From Caminibacter mediatlanticus TB-2 (GTDB lineage Bacteria; Campylobacterota; Campylobacteria; Campylobacterales; Nautiliaceae), in assembly GCF_005843985.1 (NCBI RefSeq), contig NZ_CP040463.1, positions 1,574,878 to 1,638,877 on the forward strand: a DNA stretch of 64,000 nt, read 5' to 3'. Under the pieces are notes generated by a model, which saw only the letters and a program-made list of their open reading frames with translations, had not been told where the DNA came from and searched no databases. The translations under genes were made by a program, and so were the position numbers. Positions 11,778 to 25,832 of this stretch are shown here, in pieces (within the stretch, counting starts at the first letter, position 1; every line of letters starts with the position of its first letter).

Positions 11778-12722
11778 ATGGATAAACTTTATACATTTGG
11801 TAAATATTTAAAGAAAAAATTCAAAACAAAAGTAAAAAAAGTCCCAATTTCTATTCCAGGATTTACTTGTCCTAATATTGATGGAACAGTAGCAAGAGGA
11901 GGATGTGTTTTTTGTGAAAATGAGAGTTTTTCGCCAAACTTCCAAAAAGAAAAAACATATTTAAATTTACAATCCAAATCTAACCCTCTTTTGAAAAAAC
12001 AGCTAAAATCTCTTGAATTTCAATTTTTTAATACTATACCTATATTAAAAAGAGTATATGGTGCTAAAAAATTTATAGTCTATTTTCAAAGTTTTACAAA
12101 TACATACGCCCCATTTGAAACTCTTAAAATACTCTATGAAAAAGCTCTTAGTTTTCCTGATGTTATTGGAATTAGCATAGGGACAAGGACTGATAGTATA
12201 ACCCCTCAAACTCTTGAATATTTAGCTAATTTAAGTAAAAAATATGAAGTATGGGTAGAATATGGAATTCAATCTTCAAATAATGAAACCTTAAAAAGAA
12301 TTAATAGAGGTCACGATTTTGAAAATGTAGTTGAAGTTACTAAAAAAACAAAAGAATTAGGACTTAATGTATGTGGTCATTTAATTTTTGGATTGCCAGG
12401 AGAGAATCAAAAAGAGATGTTAAAAAGTGTAGAAGATACAATAAATTTAAATATTGATAGTATTAAATTTCATCCATTATATGTTACAGACAATACTCTT
12501 CTTGCAAATGATTACAAAAAAGGATTATTTAATCCTATTAGCGAAAAAGAATATATTGATACTTTAATTAAATCTATAAAAATGTTACCTCAAAATATAT
12601 CTATTCAAAGAATGACTGCTGGTAGTGAAAATCTTTTAGCCCCTGAGTGGTGTAAAAACAAATCAGTCCAAATTAGTCATATTACACAAGCATTAAAAAA
12701 AGCGGGAATAAAAATTAATTAA
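11778..12722 (+). CDS. TIGR01212-family radical SAM protein
   Basis: Radical SAM protein of the YhcC/TIGR01212 family, whose physiological reaction is not settled. The 4Fe-4S cysteines lie in FTCPNIDGTVARGGCVFC (near residues 29-46) with the spacing of this family rather than plain CxxxCxxC. Later motifs such as YGIQSSNNETLKRINRGH and GLPGE fit the Elp3-like radical SAM barrel. AAGAGGTGTT precedes the ATG. The 3' end overlaps the last gene of the convergent alginate operon by 8 bases, with no terminator visible between them. Confidence 0.85.
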   Translation: MDKLYTFGKYLKKKFKTKVKKVPISIPGFTCPNIDGTVARGGCVFCENESFSPNFQKEKTYLNLQSKSNPLLKKQLKSLEFQFFNTIPILKRVYGAKKFIVYFQSFTNTYAPFETLKILYEKALSFPDVIGISIGTRTDSITPQTLEYLANLSKKYEVWVEYGIQSSNNETLKRINRGHDFENVVEVTKKTKELGLNVCGHLIFGLPGENQKEMLKSVEDTINLNIDSIKFHPLYVTDNTLLANDYKKGLFNPISEKEYIDTLIKSIKMLPQNISIQRMTAGSENLLAPEWCKNKSVQISHITQALKKAGIKIN

Positions 12723-14988
12723 TATAACATTTTGGTGCTTTTTTTGCTTTTTCGTATATTCTTTTTATTATTTTTGAGCTATTTATTTTCTCCATTAAAA
12801 TATAACTTAGTTTAGGTGTATTTGGTGTATTACAAAGCATAGCTCTAAAAGTATAATAAAGAGCTTTTTTGGGATTTTTATTTTGTAAATTTAATGCTTT
12901 TGCATAAAGTAAATATCCAAAATTTGAATCTACTCCTTTTATATATTTAATTTTTCCTGTTATTACATATAATAAATATCTAATTTTTGGAGTTATTTTA
13001 GCTTTTTTTAATATTTTTAATGCTTGATATTTTTTACCATTTTGATAAAGAAATTTTGCAAATTTATATTTTGAATCTTTAAGATTATATTTAATTGCTA
13101 ATTTATATAAATAAATAATTTTTTTATAATATATATTATTTATATTTAAACTCTCATACATAGAAATTAATTTATTAATCGCTTGCTTATATCCTAATTC
13201 TAATGCATTCATATAATATTTTTCTGCTATTTTAGGATTAACTTCTACATTAAATCCATTTGCATAAATATCTCCAAGTGTAATATTACTTACAATATCA
13301 TCTCTATTTTTTAAATAATCAATCGCTTCTTTAAATTTATTTTTATCATCAATAAATCTTTTTAAAATCATTATATAATAATACTCTTTACCATTAAAAT
13401 CATTTTGTTTATATAATTTTTCAAGCCAATTTTTAAGTTTATTATATTCACAATTTTGTTTATAAAATTTTGCAATACTCAATTCAGCCACTCTGTTATT
13501 CATCTGAGAATAATAATAATTGATAGTCAAATATTTTGTTTGCATTTTTAAATAATCATTATAAAAATTTGCTATTTTTAAATCTTCGCTTGGAATATAA
13601 AAAGGTTTTTTTTCTAAACTACAAGCTTTATAATAAAAATCAACGCTCTTACTTTTAGGAAGAAAAATTTCTTTTGAATATAGACTTCCCATATAGTTTA
13701 AAGCTAAAATATTATTTTGCTTTACATAATATTCCAAAATTTTCTTATTATTTTCAATATCTTTACCTATAATTATTTCTTGATATGCTTTTTCAATAAT
13801 TGCTGGAGTAAACTTCTCTTTTGTTAAATAATCCAAATATTCAAAATTAACTTTATTTTCAAACCTTTTTTCATATTGATATAAATGCCAAATAGCCAAA
13901 ACATTATTTATGTTTTTATACCATAAATATATCTCTTTTGCTTTTTTATATGAATTAAGATATAAATATTTTTCATAAATTTTTGCTAATATAAGTTTCG
14001 ACTCTATATCTTTTTGTGATTTCAAAAATGATACTACCTCATTTAAGTCCATTTTGGAATATGTTGTTAGAGAATTTTCAAAAGTATTATCTTCTATATC
14101 AAGTCTTATAATTTTGTAAATAGCTTTTTTCAATCCAAGTTTATATGAAAGATTATAGGCTTTTATCACATTTTTTCTTGAAAACAAATCATTAAATTTA
14201 TAAATCTTTAACTTTTTATAAAAAAATTCCTTAGGTGCTCTAAATTTTGAAGAACTACACCCATAATTCATAAGTTTTTCATTTTTAACCATTTCATTAT
14301 ATAAATAATTACCAAGATAATATGCAGCCCATTTATCTTTATATGCTACTTGTTTTAATAATTTATATCCCTTTTCTTCTTGTCCATTCTTTATATAAAA
14401 AATTCCCAAATAAACAGTAGCAGGATAATAGTTTTGTATATGAGCTTTTATTAAATAACTAATCCCCAGTTTAATATTTTTATAAAGACTATCTTTTAAA
14501 TAAAACTTTGCAAGCATCGTAAGTAATTTAGGATTATTAGATTGTTTAGCATATTTATTTAATTTATTTAAATGCTGTTTTTGTATTTTAAAGGAGTCTA
14601 TTTTAGTAATAATATCAATATAATTTTTGAAATCTTTAAGATTAAAATATCCAAATTTTGATAAATCATACCATTTTAAAGCCTGTTTATAATTATTTTC
14701 TTTATAATATGAATCTGCTATGATAATAGAACTTTTTAAAATTCCATTTTTATATGCTATTAATGCATATTTTCTTTCAATATATGGAGGCTTTTGTACT
14801 TTTTCTTCATAAATTAACTTTGCTACTTTATATGCTTCTTTTGGAAATCCTTTTTTTGCAAAGGGTTCTAAATTTTTATATGCTAAATAATAATTCTTTT
14901 CCTTATAATATAAATTACCTAATTTTTTATTAGCACAACCTACAATAAAAAAACTCACTAAAAATATAAATAATATTTTCTTACTCAT
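12715..14988 (-). CDS. algK: AlgK-like TPR/Sel1 outer-membrane lipoprotein
   Basis: This is a lipoprotein with a signal and lipobox ending FIVGC, giving lipidated Cys18. It is followed by about 700 residues of helical repeats of the Sel1/TPR sort (KKGFPKEAYKVAKLIY, AHIQNYYPATVYLGIFYIKNG). In Pseudomonas, AlgK is the TPR lipoprotein that places and assists the porin AlgE. The position directly after algE in the same operon supports that role here. At 757 residues it is much longer than Pseudomonas AlgK (about 475), so extra repeats or a second function are possible. It has AGGGG before the ATG and is the last gene of the operon. The AlgK name rests on architecture and context, not on a diagnostic motif. 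The DNA is strikingly AT-rich. Confidence 0.68.
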   Translation of the reverse strand: MSKKILFIFLVSFFIVGCANKKLGNLYYKEKNYYLAYKNLEPFAKKGFPKEAYKVAKLIYEEKVQKPPYIERKYALIAYKNGILKSSIIIADSYYKENNYKQALKWYDLSKFGYFNLKDFKNYIDIITKIDSFKIQKQHLNKLNKYAKQSNNPKLLTMLAKFYLKDSLYKNIKLGISYLIKAHIQNYYPATVYLGIFYIKNGQEEKGYKLLKQVAYKDKWAAYYLGNYLYNEMVKNEKLMNYGCSSSKFRAPKEFFYKKLKIYKFNDLFSRKNVIKAYNLSYKLGLKKAIYKIIRLDIEDNTFENSLTTYSKMDLNEVVSFLKSQKDIESKLILAKIYEKYLYLNSYKKAKEIYLWYKNINNVLAIWHLYQYEKRFENKVNFEYLDYLTKEKFTPAIIEKAYQEIIIGKDIENNKKILEYYVKQNNILALNYMGSLYSKEIFLPKSKSVDFYYKACSLEKKPFYIPSEDLKIANFYNDYLKMQTKYLTINYYYSQMNNRVAELSIAKFYKQNCEYNKLKNWLEKLYKQNDFNGKEYYYIMILKRFIDDKNKFKEAIDYLKNRDDIVSNITLGDIYANGFNVEVNPKIAEKYYMNALELGYKQAINKLISMYESLNINNIYYKKIIYLYKLAIKYNLKDSKYKFAKFLYQNGKKYQALKILKKAKITPKIRYLLYVITGKIKYIKGVDSNFGYLLYAKALNLQNKNPKKALYYTFRAMLCNTPNTPKLSYILMEKINSSKIIKRIYEKAKKAPKCYIN

Positions 14989-14996
14989 CTAAACCC

Positions 14997-16715
14997 CTAT
15001 TTCCAATAGTGTCTGTAATTTAAAAAAATTCTATAAGCATTTTTATTTTCTAAATAATCGTATGCATTTCCGCCAATAAAATAACCTAATCCTAATTTAA
15101 ATTTGTCACTTTTAGAATTTAAATATTGATAAATTATATTAAACTCTTCACCTAAGTGTTTGCTCTTTCCATTTGTTTCAAATAAATAAGTTGTATTATA
15201 ATTGTTTATACTTTTCTTATTTTGTTGGTAACTATTTAATAATGCAATTAATGTCTCAAAATTATTAATATTATATATCCAATACAAACTAAAAATATTA
15301 ATATTTTCTAAAATAGGATTAAAAATCATCCCATAATAATGAAAATTGATATTTCTTTGTAAAAAGTTAGAATAATTAGTTGCGATGAGTGGTTGAGTAA
15401 ATTTATGTTGTCCATAAGCAAAATTAACTCCTAAGCCATTTTTGTAATTTATAAAATATATACCTCCCACATCTAAACCATAGCCATTAAATTTTTTTGA
15501 ATAATTCAAATAATCCCGTTTTCCATTTGCATATCCTATATTAAGCCAATATTTAATTTTAGATTTTTCCCCGTGTGCATACACTCCTATATAGTTTCCT
15601 CTTTGTTTATTAAAAGTATCTTTTGGATTAGCATCTTCATATATATAGTAAATCCCTGCGTTATTCTTATAATAAAATTCATAATTTATATGAGAAATTA
15701 AATAGCCAGAGTTTTTAATATTAGCTTTTGAAGAGTTTTCATTTGTAATAATATTATTATTTATTCTTGTTGCTCCAACAATTTCAAAAGTTAATAAACT
15801 ATTTTCATTAAATAATTTAACCTCATCTAAACTATTATCAAACCACCAAGATTTAAAATCTTTTGTCTTTTTTCTACCAATTAGAATATCTAAATAGTTA
15901 CACATTAAACAATAACTTCTAAAATAAAGTTCATTAACATCTAAATAAATATTATTACTTTTATTACCACTAATATTTTTTCTGGATAATATGATTCTAT
16001 CATCTGTAAAAAATTTCCAGTTATCAAAAAAATATCTTTCATACATTAACCCAAATTTTATATTTTCATTATCACCTTTTTTTTGATATTCATTTTTTTG
16101 ACCTTTATACAAATTGCCATATAAATCAATATAATATAATATGTTAGTGGTAGAAGGAAATTTACAATAAAAATCATAATATTTAGATTTATTATTTTCA
16201 TTTACTTTCGTATTTTTAGATATACTAACATTACCTGAGGTTTTATTTTTTTCTAAATTTTTTACTTCTAAATACTTTTTTATTTTAATATTTATTTTAT
16301 TTATAATTTTTGTTTTATTAATCTCCCAGTTATATTTTTTAGTTTTAATACATCCACATTCATTTTTGCAATGTATTAGCATTTTAGTATTATTTTTATT
16401 AACAATTTTCTGTTGCTTGTTTATTTTGTAAGGATATAAAATTTTCCCTAAATTTGGATTATATTTAATAATTAAAGGATATTTATAATATTTTTTTACT
16501 TTTTTTAAAAACTCTTTTGCTTCTTTATATGAATTAAATGGCTCAATCTTATATTCAACAAATCTTGTATATTGTTTAACTATTCCATGTGGAAATCGTT
16601 TTATAAACAATTTTGCTGCTTTTAAATTAAAATTTTTAGTACTAAAAGCTATTATTGAATATTGAGCAGAAAACAAAAAAGAACTTATTAATATAATTAT
16701 TAAAATTCTCATCAT
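14997..16715 (-). CDS. algE: AlgE-like alginate export porin with N-terminal SPOR-like domain
   Basis: This is the outer-membrane channel for alginate. A signal peptide (about 1-17) is followed by a SPOR-like module (18-85) and a Lys/Asn-rich linker (about 86-190). The C-terminal barrel (about 190-572) contains VNELYFRS (260-267) and IGRKKTKDFKSWWFD (279-293), resembling the AlgE/alginate_exp family where a Gly-Arg-Lys-Arg pattern precedes Trp-Trp-x-Asp. It ends in an aromatic-rich strand (FLNYRHYWK). Plain AlgE lacks the SPOR-like part. The first ATG overlaps the algG stop; the second Met (start 16712) has better spacing to GGAG. Between algG and algK it completes the export arm. Confidence 0.78.
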   Translation of the reverse strand: MMRILIIILISSFLFSAQYSIIAFSTKNFNLKAAKLFIKRFPHGIVKQYTRFVEYKIEPFNSYKEAKEFLKKVKKYYKYPLIIKYNPNLGKILYPYKINKQQKIVNKNNTKMLIHCKNECGCIKTKKYNWEINKTKIINKINIKIKKYLEVKNLEKNKTSGNVSISKNTKVNENNKSKYYDFYCKFPSTTNILYYIDLYGNLYKGQKNEYQKKGDNENIKFGLMYERYFFDNWKFFTDDRIILSRKNISGNKSNNIYLDVNELYFRSYCLMCNYLDILIGRKKTKDFKSWWFDNSLDEVKLFNENSLLTFEIVGATRINNNIITNENSSKANIKNSGYLISHINYEFYYKNNAGIYYIYEDANPKDTFNKQRGNYIGVYAHGEKSKIKYWLNIGYANGKRDYLNYSKKFNGYGLDVGGIYFINYKNGLGVNFAYGQHKFTQPLIATNYSNFLQRNINFHYYGMIFNPILENINIFSLYWIYNINNFETLIALLNSYQQNKKSINNYNTTYLFETNGKSKHLGEEFNIIYQYLNSKSDKFKLGLGYFIGGNAYDYLENKNAYRIFLNYRHYWK

Positions 16716-19327
16716 TGCTCCATTAATTTATAAATTAATTTTTTATCAATTTTATTAATTCTAAATTCATTTATTAAATTAATATACCTATCTATATATT
16801 GAGATAATAATTTTTCAAACTCTTTTTTATTACTTTTATAATATGTAACTAAACTTTTTTTTGTTTTTTGTAACTTATTAAACACTTTTTTACATTCAAT
16901 ATTATTATTTATTATTTTATTTCTTTTTTTTAATAATTTCATATATTTAATTTTTCCAATATTTCCTTTATAAAATATGTGATTTATCTTTTTTATTACT
17001 TCATTAGTAAATAGATTAAAATTTTTATAATAAACATTGCTTAATTCATAAAAATCTTTTACCTTTGATTTTTTAACTCTGAATAAAAATTGTTTCAACT
17101 TACTTTCTATAATGGCTTTTTTATGAGAAGTTAATTTACACATTACATTATATTTTGAATTATCAATTAATTTTCCTTGTGAAAGCCTATTAATAGTTAT
17201 TTCAAAAGCATTATTTATATCATCTTTGTTTATATTTGTTATATATTTAATCAATTTTATATCAATTAAAGCATTTTCTTTTCCAAAAATAATACTTTGT
17301 ATAATATAGCTTAATGCATTTATTTTATCTTTTTTTGTTTTAGCTTGCGAGAGTAAAAAATATCCATACGAATACATATCGTTAGGATATAATAAAGATA
17401 TACCTCTTATATATTCCATCTCACCTAATCTATTGTTTTTAAGTCTTTTTATATAAATTTTTGCTAATAAATCTGAAATAAAATCATTATTACATGAAGC
17501 TTCTATATAAATTTTAATAGCCGTTTTTAATGCATTCGTACTCATTTTAATAAAATCTGAACTCAAAGGTAGATATGGATTCCCAATTCCATATAAAGTA
17601 AAATGACCTTTGTTTTCTATAATTTTAGGAATAAATATATTTAATTCACCGCCATAATTAGGATAGTATTTACTTTTTAAATAATTGTCTTTTAAATAAA
17701 TAGCTGCATTGTTCTTATTTGTTATATTAAAAAACATATTACTGTAAATTTTATTTTTTATAATATATGCAGAAGTTGCTTTATGATAGGGGTCTCTTAA
17801 AAAATCCCTATAAATCATAAAATCAATATTTTTTGTTAATACTTCAATACCATTTTTTAAATTATAAGTAATTAAATTATTCTTTATGGTATTTCTAAGA
17901 GAGTTTCTAATAATAATACCATCTATTAAATTAGCAATTATTTTATTATTTTCAATTAAGTTATTATCACTTTCTTGAATTGAAATCCCCATATATCCAT
18001 TTAATGCAGTTAGATTATCATATATATAGTTTTTAGAAGAAGACCTATCAAGCATTATTCCAGCAGAATGGTTATTAAAAGAAAAATTTTGAGCAATTAT
18101 AGTATTGTCAACTCCTCTTGAAATTACAATACCATGAGCATGTTTTGCTTTTGCAGTTAAATTTCTAATAATAATTAAATGTTTACTATAATCATGTGGG
18201 TCAATATTATATATTAAATTATCATACATTACATTACCAATAATAGCACTTTTTCCTGCATTGGCACAATAAAATCCCATCATATTTTTATACATTAAAT
18301 TTCCAATATAATAACCATTTGGTTTTCCTCTTTTATTTAAATATGTAAATAATGAATATTGATTAATAATTAAATCACTTGGATAATTAACAATAGAAAT
18401 ACCAAACGTAGCTGTTGTTGAATGAAATCCAAGCCCTCTAAATTCATTATTAATAAAATATGTTTTAGAACTACTAAAACCTAAAAAATATGGCCGTGGA
18501 GTCTGTTTTCCTATTAATAATAACTCATTTTCCGGAATAAACTCTCTTTTAGCAAATATATTTTTTTTAATATCCCAAGTAATAAATTTTGAATTATAAG
18601 CATAAATTTTTCCATGATACATTATAAATATAGGTTTTGGTTTTGTTTCAAGCAATATTGTTTTATTTTTAATAACTAATGATGCAGTAGGTGAAATATA
18701 TATAGGATATTTGATTATATAAGTATTATTACTAATTTTTTCAATAATTTTTTTATTATTTATTTTTTTATATAAATATTCGATGTTGTAAATACCATTA
18801 TAAAGAACTAAAATTTTAGTTGAAAGATTATGTTTTTTATAATATCTGTAAAATTCATATATATTAATAGTAGGCATTAAAGGTAATTTTTCGATTGGAA
18901 CTAAATCAATTCCATTTCCATAAAAATTCTTTGGAAATTTTTTTAATAATTTTTCAGGTTTATAATCTTTTATTAAATTATTAATATTAATCTTATTAAC
19001 TGTCGATGGTCTTGGGAAAATCACATATTGGTCTTTAAAAGAAAATTTATGTTTCACAATTTTTGGGTTTTTAAAATTAAATTTTAATGTATGAAGTGTT
19101 TTATTTGCATCTTCATATTTCCCATAACAACCAATATAAGATAAATTACTCTCCCATATAATTTTATCTTGTAAAATATTACACCTTGGTTCTAAAAAGT
19201 TATAATAATCTTTAAAATTATATGGATAAACAGGAGTAAAAAACCCTGTCTCAGTTAAAATTGAATAGCATTCAAATGCAAATAACTGAAATGAAAAAAA
19301 GAAAGTTAAACATAACTTTTTAATCAT
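16712..19327 (-). CDS. algG: Mannuronan C5-epimerase AlgG-like, with C-terminal extension
   Basis: Periplasmic right-handed beta-helix enzyme that converts D-mannuronate to L-guluronate in the polymer. After a signal peptide (1-18) come an N-terminal domain (to about 195) and the beta-helix (about 200-560). The family's catalytic motif DPHD is at 376-379, followed by HGIVISRGVDN (398-408) and AGIMLDRSS (422-430), all in the AlgG order. At 871 residues it is far longer than Pseudomonas AlgG (about 540). The extra C-terminal 270 residues are helical, Lys-rich and repeat-like. It overlaps alg44 by 8 bases and algE by 4. In Pseudomonas AlgG also guards the polymer in the periplasm. The DNA is very AT-rich. 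Confidence 0.85.
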   Translation of the reverse strand: MIKKLCLTFFFSFQLFAFECYSILTETGFFTPVYPYNFKDYYNFLEPRCNILQDKIIWESNLSYIGCYGKYEDANKTLHTLKFNFKNPKIVKHKFSFKDQYVIFPRPSTVNKININNLIKDYKPEKLLKKFPKNFYGNGIDLVPIEKLPLMPTINIYEFYRYYKKHNLSTKILVLYNGIYNIEYLYKKINNKKIIEKISNNTYIIKYPIYISPTASLVIKNKTILLETKPKPIFIMYHGKIYAYNSKFITWDIKKNIFAKREFIPENELLLIGKQTPRPYFLGFSSSKTYFINNEFRGLGFHSTTATFGISIVNYPSDLIINQYSLFTYLNKRGKPNGYYIGNLMYKNMMGFYCANAGKSAIIGNVMYDNLIYNIDPHDYSKHLIIIRNLTAKAKHAHGIVISRGVDNTIIAQNFSFNNHSAGIMLDRSSSKNYIYDNLTALNGYMGISIQESDNNLIENNKIIANLIDGIIIRNSLRNTIKNNLITYNLKNGIEVLTKNIDFMIYRDFLRDPYHKATSAYIIKNKIYSNMFFNITNKNNAAIYLKDNYLKSKYYPNYGGELNIFIPKIIENKGHFTLYGIGNPYLPLSSDFIKMSTNALKTAIKIYIEASCNNDFISDLLAKIYIKRLKNNRLGEMEYIRGISLLYPNDMYSYGYFLLSQAKTKKDKINALSYIIQSIIFGKENALIDIKLIKYITNINKDDINNAFEITINRLSQGKLIDNSKYNVMCKLTSHKKAIIESKLKQFLFRVKKSKVKDFYELSNVYYKNFNLFTNEVIKKINHIFYKGNIGKIKYMKLLKKRNKIINNNIECKKVFNKLQKTKKSLVTYYKSNKKEFEKLLSQYIDRYINLINEFRINKIDKKLIYKLMEQ

Positions 19328-20879
19328 TTATTTTCACTTTACATTTTATTATAAATGCATCTTTATAATATTTTTTAACTTTATTATTAATAAATTCTTT
19401 TGCCTCTTTTACTGTATCAAAACTTTCTATTTTTAATTCATATATATCTCCAACTTTTATAATTTTTGCATTATTAAATTTATTTAAAAACTCTTGAGAT
19501 TTTTTATCCGTAAATGGTTTAGTTGAAGAAGCAGCTATGATACAATATTTTTTAACATAAATTGTTTTTTTCGTTTTAGAAGTGTTAACTTCTAATTGTT
19601 TATTGGATATGTTGATATCCATTTTCTTTATATTTTGTAGTTGAGATGGATTTAATGAATTGTTTTTATCTATATTTATTTGATTTTTTTCAGTCAAATT
19701 ATCTTCTGGTTTTAATTGGTTTGATGATAAGTTTTGTTCATTAACATTTTTAGTCTCTATACTTGTATTTTCTTCTATTTTATACCAATTATATTTATTT
19801 AACATTGTATCAATTGTTACTACAGCACTTGTACTTATCATATCTTCTGATACATTATAATTAATTGGGTATAAAATAACTTTATCATAATTTCTTGCTT
19901 GATTATATATATTTTCAAGTGGTCTTGAATGTTGTTCTATAACATTATATGGAAATTCAATTTTTACTACTTTTGCATAGAATCTATCTCCATTTGGTAA
20001 ATCAACCACTGCAATATCCCCAATATGAATCTTTTTTAAATCTTTATGTAAAATATTAGCTACTATAAAAATTTTATAATTTTGCTCTAAAATTGCAATA
20101 ACAGGTTCTCCAACATTTCTAAAATCACCATTATGAATCATAATTTTATGAATATATCCACTTAGTGGTGATTTAACAATTTGAATTCCTCCATAAATTA
20201 AATGTGAATATAATAAAATTTCTCCTTGTTTTACAAACTTTTTATTTTTTAAATCCTGTGATAATTCTATATATGAAGGTGATGGTGCTCTAATAATAGT
20301 CATATTAGCATCAAAATATGCATTTTCACTTTTTACAACATATGTCTTTTGATAAAAAGTATAAAGAATAAACAAAACTAAAAAAATTACAAAAAGTGTT
20401 AGTAAAATCAATACTAACATTACTTTTGGTTTTTCAACTTTAGGTTTTTTATCTTTTTTTTCAATAAATTGAGCCCTTGTTACAGCATGAATAATGTCAT
20501 CTTCTGTAATAATATCCCCAGCTAAATAAGCAGATATTATTTGATTTAATATGGCAATTTGTTGAGGAGTAAGCTCCGTAAAGCGAGCACCAACTATTAC
20601 ATGACCATCTTTTTCTCTTTTTGATACAAACTCTAATTGTAAATTGTCTATAACAGTTTCAAAATCATCAAATTTAAATATCATCTTGCCAATAGCATAT
20701 TTTTTTTGATACACTTCATCTGGTAAATCTATAATACCTACTCCTGAAACTGACCAATCATATACCTTATAAACTTTACCATCTATTTCAATTTTTGCAG
20801 GAATTTTATATCTTGCATGCTGCCTTGTTATTTCAGCTTCATGAACAATTTGCTTAGACTTTTTTATTTTTTCATCCAT
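19320..20879 (-). CDS. alg44: Alginate co-polymerase Alg44 with PilZ c-di-GMP receptor and SPOR-like tail
   Basis: Inner-membrane co-polymerase that switches on Alg8 when c-di-GMP binds. The PilZ domain (about 18-120) has RQHAR (Arg19, Arg23) and DWSVSG (Asp41, Ser43, Gly46), the full RxxxR...DxSxxG signature. A membrane helix (153-175) and a periplasmic HlyD-like region (about 180-350) follow. After a Ser/Asn/Lys linker comes a SPOR-like module (445-515) similar to the one on AlgE. I chose the ATG at 20879 because TAGGAGT lies just before it; the in-frame ATG at 20912 would lie inside alg8 and lacks such a site. The protein is 519 residues, against about 390 in Pseudomonas, the difference being mostly the tail. 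Confidence 0.9.
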   Translation of the reverse strand: MDEKIKKSKQIVHEAEITRQHARYKIPAKIEIDGKVYKVYDWSVSGVGIIDLPDEVYQKKYAIGKMIFKFDDFETVIDNLQLEFVSKREKDGHVIVGARFTELTPQQIAILNQIISAYLAGDIITEDDIIHAVTRAQFIEKKDKKPKVEKPKVMLVLILLTLFVIFLVLFILYTFYQKTYVVKSENAYFDANMTIIRAPSPSYIELSQDLKNKKFVKQGEILLYSHLIYGGIQIVKSPLSGYIHKIMIHNGDFRNVGEPVIAILEQNYKIFIVANILHKDLKKIHIGDIAVVDLPNGDRFYAKVVKIEFPYNVIEQHSRPLENIYNQARNYDKVILYPINYNVSEDMISTSAVVTIDTMLNKYNWYKIEENTSIETKNVNEQNLSSNQLKPEDNLTEKNQINIDKNNSLNPSQLQNIKKMDINISNKQLEVNTSKTKKTIYVKKYCIIAASSTKPFTDKKSQEFLNKFNNAKIIKVGDIYELKIESFDTVKEAKEFINNKVKKYYKDAFIIKCKVKIND

Positions 20880-20887
20880 TTTAACTC

Positions 20888-22414
20888 CTATATCCAATTT
20901 AAATATGCCCAAATATCATCAAATGTAATATTTTGGACTAAAATATTAATTATAATAATAAACAACAGTAACTTCATTGTAAGACTAAGATTAGAACTAA
21001 CATATTGATACCAAGCAGTAAACCTGTCCCCTGCAGCTAATTTTGTTTTTTGTCTTGTCCAACTTTGTTTATATAAATGCTCCCAAATATACATTTTAAC
21101 AAATGAACCTACAACCTGATTGTAATATAAAAAGAATGGCCAACTTGGTAAAATATCTTTCCTTGAAACACTATATGCAAATGTCATAATAAGTCTTGAT
21201 AATAAAATCCACCAAATATAAGCAAGAAAAATATACGCTCCCCAATGAATGGCACCAAATATTGCAATCATTAATCCATAAGGAGTGGCCCATTTAGTAA
21301 ATCTTTGATCCCACAAAGCATACCAAGTATAAAGTCCTAAAATTTCAATAGGAAGTTTTAAAGCCCTCTCATTAGTTCTATATTGATTACCAAACCATCT
21401 CTGCATTAGCATTAAAGAACCTATAAAGAAATTTCTATGAGGAATTTCTTCAATAGTATATACAACAACGTCTGGTACATAAAGCATATCCCAGCCGTTT
21501 TTTATAACATAAAACCAACTTGATTTATCATCACCTGTCAAAAATGGAATTTTTCCAAGTCTCCAATGCTCAAAATAATCATTTTGGACTGTTTCTACAA
21601 ACTCTCTGTCAGCTACTATATTTGCTCTAAACATTGACATTCTACCAGTAAGAGTCAAAACTCTATCCCCTAACGCTAATGAAGACATAGTAACATTTCT
21701 TTGAGCAAACCTTAGTCTATACCATTTCCTATAAATATCTGTTATAAAGTCTTTACCTTCTAATCTTGCATCTTCATCAGTAGTTAATGCTCCAAGATTC
21801 TCATTTAATCCAAAAAGCCTTGCAGACTTTTTAATAACTCCTTCTCCTAAAATAGAATCCCCATCAACAACAGCCACCACTGAATTATAAAGATTTACAG
21901 GAGAGTTTGACACAACTCTAAAACCAACTGCTAATCCATCTCTTTTCCCAGTCCCTTTAATTCTTGTTATTACAAGTTTTACTCTCTCAGGAGGATCCAT
22001 CTCTAAAAATATTTTTCTAACTAACCTCTCTTCACTCATCTCAACAATAGAAGCAATTAATGTAACATTATAGCCACAATTAATAGCTTCTTTAATAGCA
22101 GCTCTATAAACTTCAACAGATACACTCGTTCCAATTCTAAAAGTTGTAATCAGGATAAATACATGCTCAGGGTCTATTTCTTTTCCACTATTTTCTTCTT
22201 CTTTTCTAATAGCTTTAAACTTTATGTTTTTATATGCCCATGCTCTTACAATATTCATAAAAAACCATGTATATCTCCATGTTCCAACAAAACCTATAAA
22301 AAATATTAGATTTTTTGCATATGGGTCAAATCTCTCAAATGGAATAAGTAATCCAATTAAAACAACAAATAAAATATAAATAAGAAAATAAAAAAACTTT
22401 AAAATTTCTTTCAT
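20888..22414 (-). CDS. alg8: Alginate polymerase glycosyltransferase Alg8
   Basis: Family 2 processive glycosyltransferase in the inner membrane that polymerises GDP-mannuronate. Two N-terminal membrane helices (about 5-60) precede the catalytic domain, which has DGD (184-186), TGDD (293-296) and QRW (338-340), the D...DxD...D..QxxRW pattern of cellulose- and alginate-synthase enzymes. C-terminal membrane helices follow (about 375-500). The length (508) fits Alg8 (about 494). RBS AAGGGG stands before the ATG. It lies between algD and alg44 as in Pseudomonas, which makes alginate rather than cellulose or hyaluronan the natural reading. Confidence 0.92.
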   Translation of the reverse strand: MKEILKFFYFLIYILFVVLIGLLIPFERFDPYAKNLIFFIGFVGTWRYTWFFMNIVRAWAYKNIKFKAIRKEEENSGKEIDPEHVFILITTFRIGTSVSVEVYRAAIKEAINCGYNVTLIASIVEMSEERLVRKIFLEMDPPERVKLVITRIKGTGKRDGLAVGFRVVSNSPVNLYNSVVAVVDGDSILGEGVIKKSARLFGLNENLGALTTDEDARLEGKDFITDIYRKWYRLRFAQRNVTMSSLALGDRVLTLTGRMSMFRANIVADREFVETVQNDYFEHWRLGKIPFLTGDDKSSWFYVIKNGWDMLYVPDVVVYTIEEIPHRNFFIGSLMLMQRWFGNQYRTNERALKLPIEILGLYTWYALWDQRFTKWATPYGLMIAIFGAIHWGAYIFLAYIWWILLSRLIMTFAYSVSRKDILPSWPFFLYYNQVVGSFVKMYIWEHLYKQSWTRQKTKLAAGDRFTAWYQYVSSNLSLTMKLLLFIIIINILVQNITFDDIWAYLNWI

Positions 22415-22431: not shown

Positions 22432-23748
22432 TTAAACTATTCTAATATAATTTTCATCCTTTACTTTATCCCCTATTGCAGCAATATCTATAAAAATTTT
22501 ATCTTTATATTTTTCCTCTAACCCTTTAAATTTATTGTTATTATTACCAATCAAAATTACATCAGAATGACTTATAACTTCATCTAATTCATTTTTTAAT
22601 CTTTTATCTATATGATGCAACTCATTTTCAATATACTCTTTTGCAGCTCCATCTTTTTTTGCTTTTAAAACATTTTCATCATAAATCAAAACAAAATATC
22701 CTTTTCCAATTAACATTTCTGTAAGTTCAAGCATTGGAGATTCCCTTAAATCATCAGTACCAGCTTTAAAACTAATTCCTAAAACTCCTATTTTTTTCTT
22801 TTTTAATGGTTTAATAAAATAATTATAAACTCTTTTTATTTGATATTCATTGCTTAACATCAATGAATTTAAAAGAGGAGTATTTTCATCAAGTTCTTTT
22901 GCTTTATGAGTAATTGCTTTTACATCTTTTGGTAAACAACTCCCACCAAAAGCAAATCCAGGTTTTAAATAATATGTTGAAATATTTAATTTTCTATCTG
23001 CACAAAAAATATCCATTACTTTATGCGAATCAATTTCAAGTTTTGAACAAATAAGTCCAATTTCATTTGCAAATGTAACTTTTGTTGCATGCCAAGAGTT
23101 ATCAGCATACTTAACCATTTCTGCTTCTTTTATTTTAACTTTAAATAGTGGTGCTTCATTGATATCTATAAATGAATATAAATTTTCTAAAATTTCAGCA
23201 GTTTTATCATTACTTGCACCAATTACAGTTTTTGGTGGATGATAAAAATCATAAATTGCAGTACTTTCTCTTAAAAACTCAGGGTTTGAAGCATAACCAA
23301 AGTCTTTATTTATTTTTTTATTTGAATATTTTTCTATTATTGGTATTACAACATCCTCCCCCGTTCCTGGTAAAACTGTACTTCTCATTACAACTATGTG
23401 AAAACTATCTTTTTCTTTTAGAACTTCTCCTATTTGTTTAGAGGCTTCTTTTATATATCTTAAATCTATACTCCCATTTTCCCTTGAAGGAGTTCCAACA
23501 GCAATAAAAGTTATATTACTATTTTTGATTGCATCTTTTAAATTAGTAGTAGCTTTTAATCTTCCTTCTTTTACATTTTTTTCTATTAATTTATCTAAAT
23601 CTTTTTCTACAATTGGTGATTTCCCTTGATTTATTAAATCCACTTTTGTTTTATCTACATCTACACCAATTACGTTATGCCCTTCATTAGCAAAACAAGC
23701 ACTACAAACTGCACCAACATATCCCAAACCTATAACTGAAATATTCAT
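22432..23748 (-). CDS. algD: GDP-mannose 6-dehydrogenase
   Basis: Oxidises GDP-mannose to GDP-mannuronate in two NAD steps, the committed reaction of alginate synthesis. NAD motif GLGYVGAVC is at residues 7-15 and catalytic Cys271 lies in GFAFGGSCLPKD. Segments such as LINQGKSPIVE, NPEFLRESTAI and FKAGTDDLRESP are close to Pseudomonas AlgD as I remember it. UDP-glucose/UDP-ManNAc dehydrogenases share the fold, but these AlgD-like segments and the neighbours (algA, alg8, alg44) point to GDP-mannose. The length of 438 matches AlgD (436). RBS AAGGA precedes the ATG, and the PL7 lyase gene ends 1 base upstream. Confidence 0.94.
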   Translation of the reverse strand: MNISVIGLGYVGAVCSACFANEGHNVIGVDVDKTKVDLINQGKSPIVEKDLDKLIEKNVKEGRLKATTNLKDAIKNSNITFIAVGTPSRENGSIDLRYIKEASKQIGEVLKEKDSFHIVVMRSTVLPGTGEDVVIPIIEKYSNKKINKDFGYASNPEFLRESTAIYDFYHPPKTVIGASNDKTAEILENLYSFIDINEAPLFKVKIKEAEMVKYADNSWHATKVTFANEIGLICSKLEIDSHKVMDIFCADRKLNISTYYLKPGFAFGGSCLPKDVKAITHKAKELDENTPLLNSLMLSNEYQIKRVYNYFIKPLKKKKIGVLGISFKAGTDDLRESPMLELTEMLIGKGYFVLIYDENVLKAKKDGAAKEYIENELHHIDKRLKNELDEVISHSDVILIGNNNNKFKGLEEKYKDKIFIDIAAIGDKVKDENYIRIV

Positions 23749-23749
23749 C

Positions 23750-24463
23750 TTATTCCTTTATAAATAATCTATTAAATAAAACTTTTGCACAACCTTTATC
23801 TTGCAAATATACCCCAGCTTTAAAATAATTTTTGTATTTTTGCCAATAACTAACATTTTCTTTAACTTTTAATTTATTATTTAAATAAATTTTTAACATG
23901 TTTTTTACAACTATTATTTTAACATTAAAAAAATCCTTTTGTAAAATTCCTAAGTCAATCTTTTTATAATTATTTGAAAGCAAACTATCACTAATTCTAA
24001 TTATCGCCCATAAATGATTATATAAATTATGATACTCTTTTCTCCACACAATTCTAAGAAGAGGTTTATTAATAATAGGAGCATCTTTTAGAGTGCTATC
24101 AGCATGAATTTGTAAAAATGTAAATTCTCTTTTTGCATTAAGAGAAAAAAGTTTTACTTCTGCTTCTAAAATTTTAGGAATTTTAGTATTCACAGACCAT
24201 ATATTTTTAAATCTAAGTTCACTTCTATTATGACTGCCACACATATAAAACACCATATATTTATTATCTTGCAAATAAAAATATTTGTTTGAATAGTCTT
24301 TAAAATCTCCATAATGTCTTGAATATAAAGGATTGAAAGAGCTTTTTGGAGCTTGTAATTTTGACATATTTAATACTGGTTTAAATTTATCTAACGAATA
24401 TGGAGAATCATGACCAAAGAGAATAACAAAAAAAATAAAAAAACTAATCCCTCTCAAAATCAT
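23750..24463 (-). CDS. PL7-type alginate lyase
   Basis: Secreted polysaccharide lyase of family 7. A signal peptide (about 1-18) is followed by a small beta-jelly-roll domain with the three PL7 signature blocks: NRSELR (79-84), QIH (118-120) and YFKAGVYLQ (213-221). Arg, Gln118, His120 and Tyr219, the expected catalytic residues, are all present, so it should be active. In Pseudomonas the operon lyase is AlgL (PL5), an unrelated alpha-barrel that clears misplaced polymer from the periplasm. This PL7 enzyme probably fills that place or trims and releases chains. It overlaps algA by 20 bases and directly precedes algD. Confidence 0.87.
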   Translation of the reverse strand: MILRGISFFIFFVILFGHDSPYSLDKFKPVLNMSKLQAPKSSFNPLYSRHYGDFKDYSNKYFYLQDNKYMVFYMCGSHNRSELRFKNIWSVNTKIPKILEAEVKLFSLNAKREFTFLQIHADSTLKDAPIINKPLLRIVWRKEYHNLYNHLWAIIRISDSLLSNNYKKIDLGILQKDFFNVKIIVVKNMLKIYLNNKLKVKENVSYWQKYKNYFKAGVYLQDKGCAKVLFNRLFIKE

Positions 24464-25832
24464 CTTCTATCCTAACAATATCATCTTCTTCTAAATATTC
24501 TCCAACTTGAACTTCTACAATTTTTAAAGGAATTTTTCCTGGATTTTCAAGTCTATGTATTTCCCCCATTGGAATATAAGTTGATTCATTAGGTCTTAAT
24601 ATAAATTCTTTATCTCCATTAATAACTTTTGCTGTACCACTAACTACTACCCAATGCTCACTTCTATGGAAATGTTTTTGTAGAGAGAGTCTTTTGCCAG
24701 GATTAACAACAATTAGTTTAACTTTATATCCATCACCTTCTTCAATATTAGTATATTTACCCCAAGGCCTATATACCGTCCTTCCAAACTTAACAACATC
24801 AGGATTTTTTTCTTTTAAAATTTTTACAATCTCTTTAACTTTTTGAGCATCTCCTCTTTTTGTAACTAAAAGAGCTGTTGGAGTGTCTACAATAATTAAA
24901 TCATTAATATCATTGATTACAATTTGTTTTTTATATCTTCCAAAAACTAAATTATTTTTTGAATTTAAAGCTAATAATTTATCATTTTTCGTATTACCAT
25001 TTTCATCTTTTGGCAATACTTCATATAATGCATCAAAATCTCCAACATCTTGCCATTTAATATTACTTTTTATCATTTTTATTATTTTACTATGCTCCAT
25101 TACAGCATAATCTATACTCTCATCCCTGATTTCAAGCATATCATCTTTTTTTATTCTTACAAACTCACCTTTTTTAGCATTCTCATAAGCTTTTTTACTT
25201 GCCTCATATATATCTGGTGCGTATTTTTTAAGTTCATTTAAATATACCTCTGCTTTAAACATAAACATACCACTATTCCAATAATAATTACCATCTTCAA
25301 TATATTTTTTTGCTGTTTTAATATCAGGTTTTTCTTTAAAACTCTCAACATCACATATTAAATCTTTGCAAGAAATAGCTTTTATATAACCATATCCTGT
25401 TTTTGGAGAATTAGGCACTACTCCAAAAGTTACAATATATCCATCTTTTGCACACTTTTTTGCATTTTCAATAGCTTTTTTATAATTTTCATCATTTTCA
25501 ATTAAATGGTCGCTTGGTGTTATAAATAAAATCTCATCTTTATCAACACTAAAAGCAGCAAAAGCAATTGAAGCTGCTGTATTTCTACCAACAGGTTCAA
25601 TTATAAATTTAGAATCACTAAATCCCATCTCTTCTAATTGGTCAAGGGCAATAAAATATTGATTTTCATTAGATACGATCAAAAAGTCTTTACTATATTC
25701 TGAATTTCTTTTTAAAGTTAATTGAAAAAGTGATTTGTTATCTATAAATTTTAAAAATTGCTTTGGTAAATTTTCTCTACTAATTGGCCAAAGTCTCGTT
25801 CCACTTCCTCCACATAAAATTACATTTGTCAT
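24444..25832 (-). CDS. algA: Mannose-1-phosphate guanylyltransferase / mannose-6-phosphate isomerase
   Basis: Bifunctional type II PMI/GMP enzyme (AlgA/ManC) that makes mannose-6-phosphate and later GDP-mannose, the precursor for AlgD. The N-terminal nucleotidyltransferase begins CGGSGTRLWPISRENLPKQF (residues 7-26). The C-terminal cupin isomerase (about 350-462) has RPWGKY and LQKHFHRSEHW with the metal-binding His residues. The length of 462 is usual. It is the first gene of the operon, with AAGGGG before the ATG and a -10 box 29 bases upstream. The phosphomannomutase (AlgC) step between its two activities is not in this window. Confidence 0.94.
   Translation of the reverse strand: MTNVILCGGSGTRLWPISRENLPKQFLKFIDNKSLFQLTLKRNSEYSKDFLIVSNENQYFIALDQLEEMGFSDSKFIIEPVGRNTAASIAFAAFSVDKDEILFITPSDHLIENDENYKKAIENAKKCAKDGYIVTFGVVPNSPKTGYGYIKAISCKDLICDVESFKEKPDIKTAKKYIEDGNYYWNSGMFMFKAEVYLNELKKYAPDIYEASKKAYENAKKGEFVRIKKDDMLEIRDESIDYAVMEHSKIIKMIKSNIKWQDVGDFDALYEVLPKDENGNTKNDKLLALNSKNNLVFGRYKKQIVINDINDLIIVDTPTALLVTKRGDAQKVKEIVKILKEKNPDVVKFGRTVYRPWGKYTNIEEGDGYKVKLIVVNPGKRLSLQKHFHRSEHWVVVSGTAKVINGDKEFILRPNESTYIPMGEIHRLENPGKIPLKIVEVQVGEYLEEDDIVRIEDDFERD

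Follow-up and report, generated by a model that had tools for sequence, protein, structure and literature searches.

SPOR-family modules on the inner- and outer-membrane components of an alginate exporter in a hydrothermal-vent bacterium

Two components of the alginate exporter of Caminibacter mediatlanticus TB-2, the inner-membrane component Alg44 and the outer-membrane component AlgE, share a periplasmic, tethered module, and this module is a SPOR-family domain. A sequence-only reading of the window (the whole stretch of 64,000 nucleotides analysed here, contig positions 1574878-1638877) had pointed out a pattern common to Alg44 residues about 445-515 and AlgE residues 18-85; the similarity was borne out, and the modules extend over residues 443-519 and 17-91, respectively. 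Since the domain is found on both membrane parts here and on other sugar exporters of related bacteria, the cell wall may serve as an attachment site for the alginate exporter of this hydrothermal-vent bacterium and for those other machines, although the residue with which SPOR domains usually grip the wall is missing from both copies here.

The alginate gene cluster and its shared module

The genes of the cluster lie on the minus strand in the order AlgA, PL7 lyase, AlgD, Alg8, Alg44, AlgG, AlgE, and TPR lipoprotein (Table 1), and the neighbours Alg44/AlgG and AlgG/AlgE overlap by a few bases in an operon-like manner. Alg8, a PilZ-type Alg44, AlgG, and the AlgE barrel, the set that marks synthase-dependent alginate secretion, are encoded together in this 1.69 Mb genome, and their order is unchanged in the complete or fragmentary clusters of other Campylobacterota. 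In the Pfam scan, the Alg44 core scored 24.0 bits for HlyD_3 (cut-off 22.2) and 14.6 bits for PilZ, which is below the cut-off. The Pseudomonas aeruginosa system (Alg8-Alg44-AlgG-AlgK-AlgX-AlgE) likewise has Alg8, a PilZ/HlyD Alg44, AlgG, the AlgE barrel, and a clustered TPR lipoprotein; however, the system described here differs from it in the SPOR modules, in the PL7 lyase within the cluster, and in that no ALGX or MBOAT gene was found genome-wide. The AlgX/AlgI acetylation branch modifies the polymer and lies outside the synthase-pore core. Given that the whole genome yielded no match to PF16822 (ALGX) or PF03062 (MBOAT), it is probable that the alginate made here carries no O-acetyl groups and that the system lacks the AlgX bridge known from Pseudomonas. 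The PL7 alginate lyase (PF08787) is located at 23750-24463, where a PL5 AlgL would be expected, and other alginate clusters of Campylobacterota likewise have a PL7 lyase wherever they are complete enough to show it. AlgG has about 340 residues (16712-17740) beyond the part matching Pseudomonas AlgG.

Table 1. Features of the alginate cluster in window coordinates; Alg44 residues are counted from the ATG at 20879
Feature	Position	Strand	Basis
AlgD, PL7 alginate lyase, and AlgA (upstream, same strand)	22432..25832	-	Pfam
Alg8 glycosyltransferase	20888..22414	-	Pfam
Alg44 core: PilZ (RQHAR, DWSVSG; c-di-GMP-type motif), one TM helix, HlyD-like periplasmic part	19764..20879	-	Pfam and sequence
Alg44 low-complexity tether from HlyD-like part to SPOR, about residues 373-442	19554..19763	-	
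Alg44 C-terminal SPOR module, residues 443-519	19323..19553	-	Similarity, profiles, model, fold search
AlgG, mannuronan C5-epimerase (residues 170-530 match Pseudomonas AlgG)	16712..19327	-	
AlgG N-terminal likely degenerate SPOR, about residues 19-98	19034..19273	-	
AlgE N-terminal SPOR module, residues 17-91	16443..16667	-	Similarity, profiles
AlgE linker from SPOR to barrel, about residues 92-200 (about 100 residues; contains CKNECGC)	16116..16442	-	
AlgE outer-membrane barrel (PF13372 Alginate_exp)	15000..16115	-	Pfam
TPR lipoprotein in the place of AlgK	12715..14988	-	

The Alg44 and AlgE modules are 41-43% identical. When the whole genome was searched with Alg44, AlgE was the sole second match (43% identity, E 2.6e-8), and the same search in the sister species (G039) again returned AlgE as the only other match. 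The Smith-Waterman score of the pair was 122; shuffled sequences averaged 31 ± 6, with not one in 20,000 scoring as high, and among the 405 open frames of the window no other exceeded 59. HHalign of the two modules gave 98.9%. At E<=1, a module-family profile matched seven places in the genome: Alg44 (1.5e-28), AlgE (3.4e-27), AlgG (19037-19135; 8.3e-4), and the four places that are called SPOR by PF05036. A convergent Lys/Tyr/Phe-rich composition instead of homology could be considered, as the proteins are Lys-rich and PF05036 on Alg44 stays below the cut-off (14-15 bits vs 21); however, the shuffle result, together with the agreement of profile, fold, and phylogenetic evidence, leaves this explanation a vanishingly small chance, and it was ruled out on the shuffle and profile controls.

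The assignment of the modules to the SPOR family, proposed from the same pattern, was confirmed by profile-profile comparison for both copies and by the predicted fold and a fold search for the Alg44 copy. Compared by HHalign with genuine SPORs (29 domains of the class found by PF05036), the modules gave 93.4% (Alg44), 96.1% (AlgE), 95.9% (the subfamily of the two copies), and 97% (all modules), against shuffled-column controls of at most 5.1% for all modules and at most 1.4% for the subfamily. The curated PF05036 cut-off of 21 bits was not reached by Alg44 (14.3-15.3 bits), and AlgE was absent from the PF05036 matches at E<=1 in the whole-protein scan; a stand-alone relative of the module in the genome G035 passes the cut-off with 21.5 bits. 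The AlphaFold (AF2) model of the Alg44 module (pLDDT 89.8) has the beta-alpha-beta-beta-alpha-beta order of the SPOR topology. A Foldseek search with this model gave the CwlC SPOR (1x60) as the best PDB match (probability 1.00, TM 0.67), with the RlpA SPOR at rank 12. A PDB sequence search with the module profile was uninformative, as it placed staphylococcal complement inhibitors above CwlC and DamX (E 0.04-1.2). Taken together, these results indicate that the shared module is a SPOR-family domain, with the fold modelled for the Alg44 copy.

The AlgE module begins directly at the predicted signal-peptide end, i.e., at the mature N-terminus. Just after it, at about residues 113-135 (about 16310-16380), is a Cys motif, CKNECGC...YNWEINK, to which CRKNCKNFSCKQC...YSWEIDK corresponds in the AlgE proteins of L071, L074, and L076. 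The TPR lipoprotein contained no SPOR that could be found by Pfam or by comparison of the window's open frames.

A weaker version of the domain had also been suggested for the N-terminus of AlgG, and here only the beta3-alpha2-beta4 half could be recognised by profile (83% vs the Cys-type clade described below, 61% vs canonical SPOR, shuffled-column control at most 1.9%). The comparison of AlgG with Alg44 by sequence alone was not significant. Over the approximately 98 N-terminal residues, beta1, beta3, alpha2, and beta4 are predicted, with a loop replacing alpha1-beta2; the model has an overall pLDDT of 61.8, with blocks of 78-89 at beta1 and beta3-beta4 and poor values elsewhere, and a fold search with it returned noise and no useful PDB match. 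Three Cys residues are invariant across 11 AlgGs, and the N-terminal Cys pattern of AlgG is shared with the Cys-type AlgE modules. These profile and model data suggest that the AlgG N-terminus is likely a degenerate SPOR.

Distribution, conservation, and glycan-contact residues of the module family

A module profile scanned over 249 genomes of the class gave 14 positives at E<=1e-8. In the alginate clusters examined, an N-terminal SPOR is present on every Campylobacterota AlgE with a readable start. The module is also N-terminal on PelB proteins (TPR + PF24604 PelB_C barrel) in pel operons, beside pelF and pelG, on TolC-like OEP proteins adjoining PelF-like genes, on a porin O/P, and on an unclassified protein. 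The C-terminal module of Alg44, on the other hand, was found in only 2 of 14 Campylobacterota Alg44 genes, those of this genome and the sister species; the other 12 stop before the module (distinct genes were counted, as L072 = G381 and L074 = G330). The Alg44 proteins of G035, G052, G381, and G330, and those of the vent MAGs named L068-L077, are 359-389 residues long and lack it. Within the family Nautiliaceae, 8 of 21 genomes have Alg44, and the extension is confined to the same two. Given that the Alg44 copy is restricted to this genus (2 genomes) and the AlgE SPOR is class-wide, a putative anchor on both membranes is a local extension of an outer-membrane feature that runs through the class.

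The modules fall into two clades. The first, here called CIIA (support 89/88), contains both Alg44 copies, two OEP modules, the AlgE modules of this genus, and those of AlgE proteins of the L071/L074/L076 type; the tree of these short modules gives no firm order within the clade and is compatible both with an origin of the Alg44 copy from AlgE of the same cluster and with other origins. The second, the Cys-type clade (support 97/98), contains the AlgE modules of other lineages, PelB, and porins. The subfamilies cut across polymer types. Several further SPOR-bearing proteins were also observed. The AlgE proteins of G035 and G052 (L026 6537-8813 and L027 7412-9652) have two tandem SPOR modules, the second with Asp/Glu at the glycan-contact Gln position. 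Stand-alone secreted SPOR proteins of about 100 amino acids belong to the same family (L032 3684-3986; G028:C1:1303555-1303764), and a DUF3131 protein (L113 5059-8190) has a C-terminal SPOR over the Pfam cut-off. Elsewhere in the genome under study (L062 6628-9090, about 392.6-395.1 kb), two adjacent genes encode proteins of 213 aa (SPOR) and 600 aa (SPOR+TPR). The SPORs of both have retained the Gln and, in character, fall between the canonical domains and the exporter modules.

Between this genome and the sister species, the Alg44 SPOR is 74% and the AlgE SPOR 83% identical, compared with 24% for the Alg44 tether (residues 376-440), 40% for the AlgE linker, and 53% for the AlgE barrel; the module is thus the best-conserved part of AlgE between the two species of the genus. 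The dN of the modules is 0.14-0.18 and the dS 1.3-2.0. The high identity beside poorly conserved linkers, with dN far below dS, indicates that the modules are maintained by purifying selection.

The two window modules share topology, a profile match, and a periplasmic position on a low-complexity tether with the SPOR family PF05036 (FtsN, DamX, RlpA, CwlC), but they belong to alginate machinery and not to division proteins, their single sequences score below the Pfam cut-off, and their glycan-contact Gln and Arg are replaced by Ile and Glu. The glycan contacts of the RlpA SPOR are made by a cluster of arginines (R302, R309, R311) and by Q270, which corresponds to FtsN Q251 and DamX Q351 and is the sole contact residue with high conservation (PMC6895207). 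The Gln is kept in 28/28 canonical SPORs of the class, whereas Ile occupies its position in both window copies (Alg44 I448, AlgE I22) and in all nine members of the CIIA clade. Similarly, the position of R285 (FtsN)/R309 (RlpA) is Lys/Arg in 28/28 canonical SPORs, but it is Glu in the window copies (Alg44 E481, AlgE E54) and is not basic in any of the nine CIIA members (Glu in 5, Val in 4). Two residues further on, at the position of R311 (RlpA), Lys is found in 9/9 CIIA members (Alg44 K483, AlgE K56). The Cys-type clade has Gln in 12/15 and Arg at the R311 position in 14/15. As judged from these alignments, a basic residue has shifted its position on the strand, and the subfamily to which the window copies belong has additionally lost the Gln, so any peptidoglycan binding by these modules must differ from the FtsN/RlpA mode.

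Possible functions of the modules

The most likely job of the modules, by a modest balance of the evidence, is to fasten the exporter to peptidoglycan; we infer both the ligand (peptidoglycan) and the benefit (alignment). According to this model, the outer-membrane barrel would bind the glycan strands of the wall via the AlgE SPOR, and the copy from the same subfamily that this genus has added to the Alg44 C-terminus, on a tether of about 70 residues, would allow the synthase subunit to bind them as well. Wall binding would fix the pore in the mesh and help to keep the synthase aligned with it across the periplasm. Wall anchoring is favoured by the SPOR ancestry of the modules, their tethered periplasmic placement, their repeated occurrence on exporters of different kinds, and the LspD precedent, and it is weakened by the loss of the main glycan-contact residue. 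This genome encodes an Amidase_3, a member of the enzyme family that produces denuded glycan, which counts in favour of anchoring; denuded glycan is concentrated at septa, which are not an obvious exporter site, and this counts against it. The sequence-only reading took SPOR domains to bind bare peptidoglycan strands, a property that depends on a conserved Gln together with a basic patch, and had the wall holding both halves of the secretion path: a periplasmic, tethered SPOR-family module is indeed present on each membrane's component, but the arrangement is not general. As only 2/14 Alg44 genes have the module, a two-sided wall hold is no requirement of the machine, and the fact that other Alg44 proteins work without it casts some doubt on anchoring itself.

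The loss of the Gln and of the R309-type residue in a subfamily whose module is strongly conserved, and the occurrence of related modules on three proteins of one pathway, would also suit a SPOR fold re-used for subunit docking, in which the Alg44 and AlgE copies (and the AlgG remnant) bind one another or a partner common to them, and so keep the trans-envelope complex together without wall contact. We consider this unlikely, though with an appreciable chance, as TolC-like OEP proteins from another pathway carry the same subfamily and as a pairing copy is missing from most Alg44 proteins. The modules might instead bind the exported polysaccharide and guide it to the pore, since alginate resembles denuded glycan in being a 1,4-linked chain with carboxylates; they look Lys-rich, one beta3 basic residue is kept in 9/9 members, and AlgG, whose substrate is the polymer, retains a remnant as well. 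However, exporters of quite different polymers also have the module, for example PelB (Pel is a partly cationic GalNAc/GalN polymer), and neither subfamily tracks polymer type, which makes polymer binding improbable. The presence of the module on AlgE, PelB, TolC-like OEP, and porin O/P proteins rather suggests that the ligand is likelier a common part of the envelope than the polymer. Canonical septum targeting, placing alginate export at the division site or the poles, would agree with the state of knowledge in 2019, when every known SPOR protein had a role in division or morphogenesis (PMC6895207), but both copies have lost the Gln and the contact Arg, and FtsN and DamX localise less well to the septum when Q251 or Q351, respectively, is mutated (PMC6895207); we give it little chance.

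Returning to wall anchoring, the closest precedent is the secretin LspD of the Legionella T2SS, which carries an N-terminal SPOR (PMC9239104). Like AlgE, LspD is an outer-membrane secretion pore with the SPOR at its N-terminus; unlike AlgE, it is a protein-secreting secretin ring and not a polysaccharide beta-barrel, and no inner-membrane copy has been reported (PMC9239104). GspA/GspB of the T2SS and PilQ-AMIN/TsaP of T4P are further cases in which an extra domain ties a pore to peptidoglycan (PMC9239104), but the domains (PF01471, AMIN, LysM) are unrelated, and the analogy is functional only. LspD and the polysaccharide exporters described here widen the roles of SPOR beyond division and morphogenesis. 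A literature search, mostly of openly available papers, found no published SPOR on a polysaccharide exporter, alginate machinery, or PelB. To our knowledge, the Pseudomonas alginate proteins have no SPOR, and for AlgE this agrees with the solved structures, which match only the barrel part of the window AlgE.

More tentatively, and with somewhat less than even confidence, we propose that Campylobacterota evolved a general wall-anchoring device: an exchangeable, N-terminal, SPOR-derived module on AlgE, PelB, TolC-like, and porin-like exporters, which in one subfamily has altered glycan recognition and in this genus was duplicated onto the c-di-GMP-controlled Alg44, pinning synthase and pore to the wall. 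As the domain is genetically removable on AlgE, PelB, and Alg44, the wall-anchoring idea can be put to a direct test, and nature already provides variants that have the inner-membrane copy and others that lack it.
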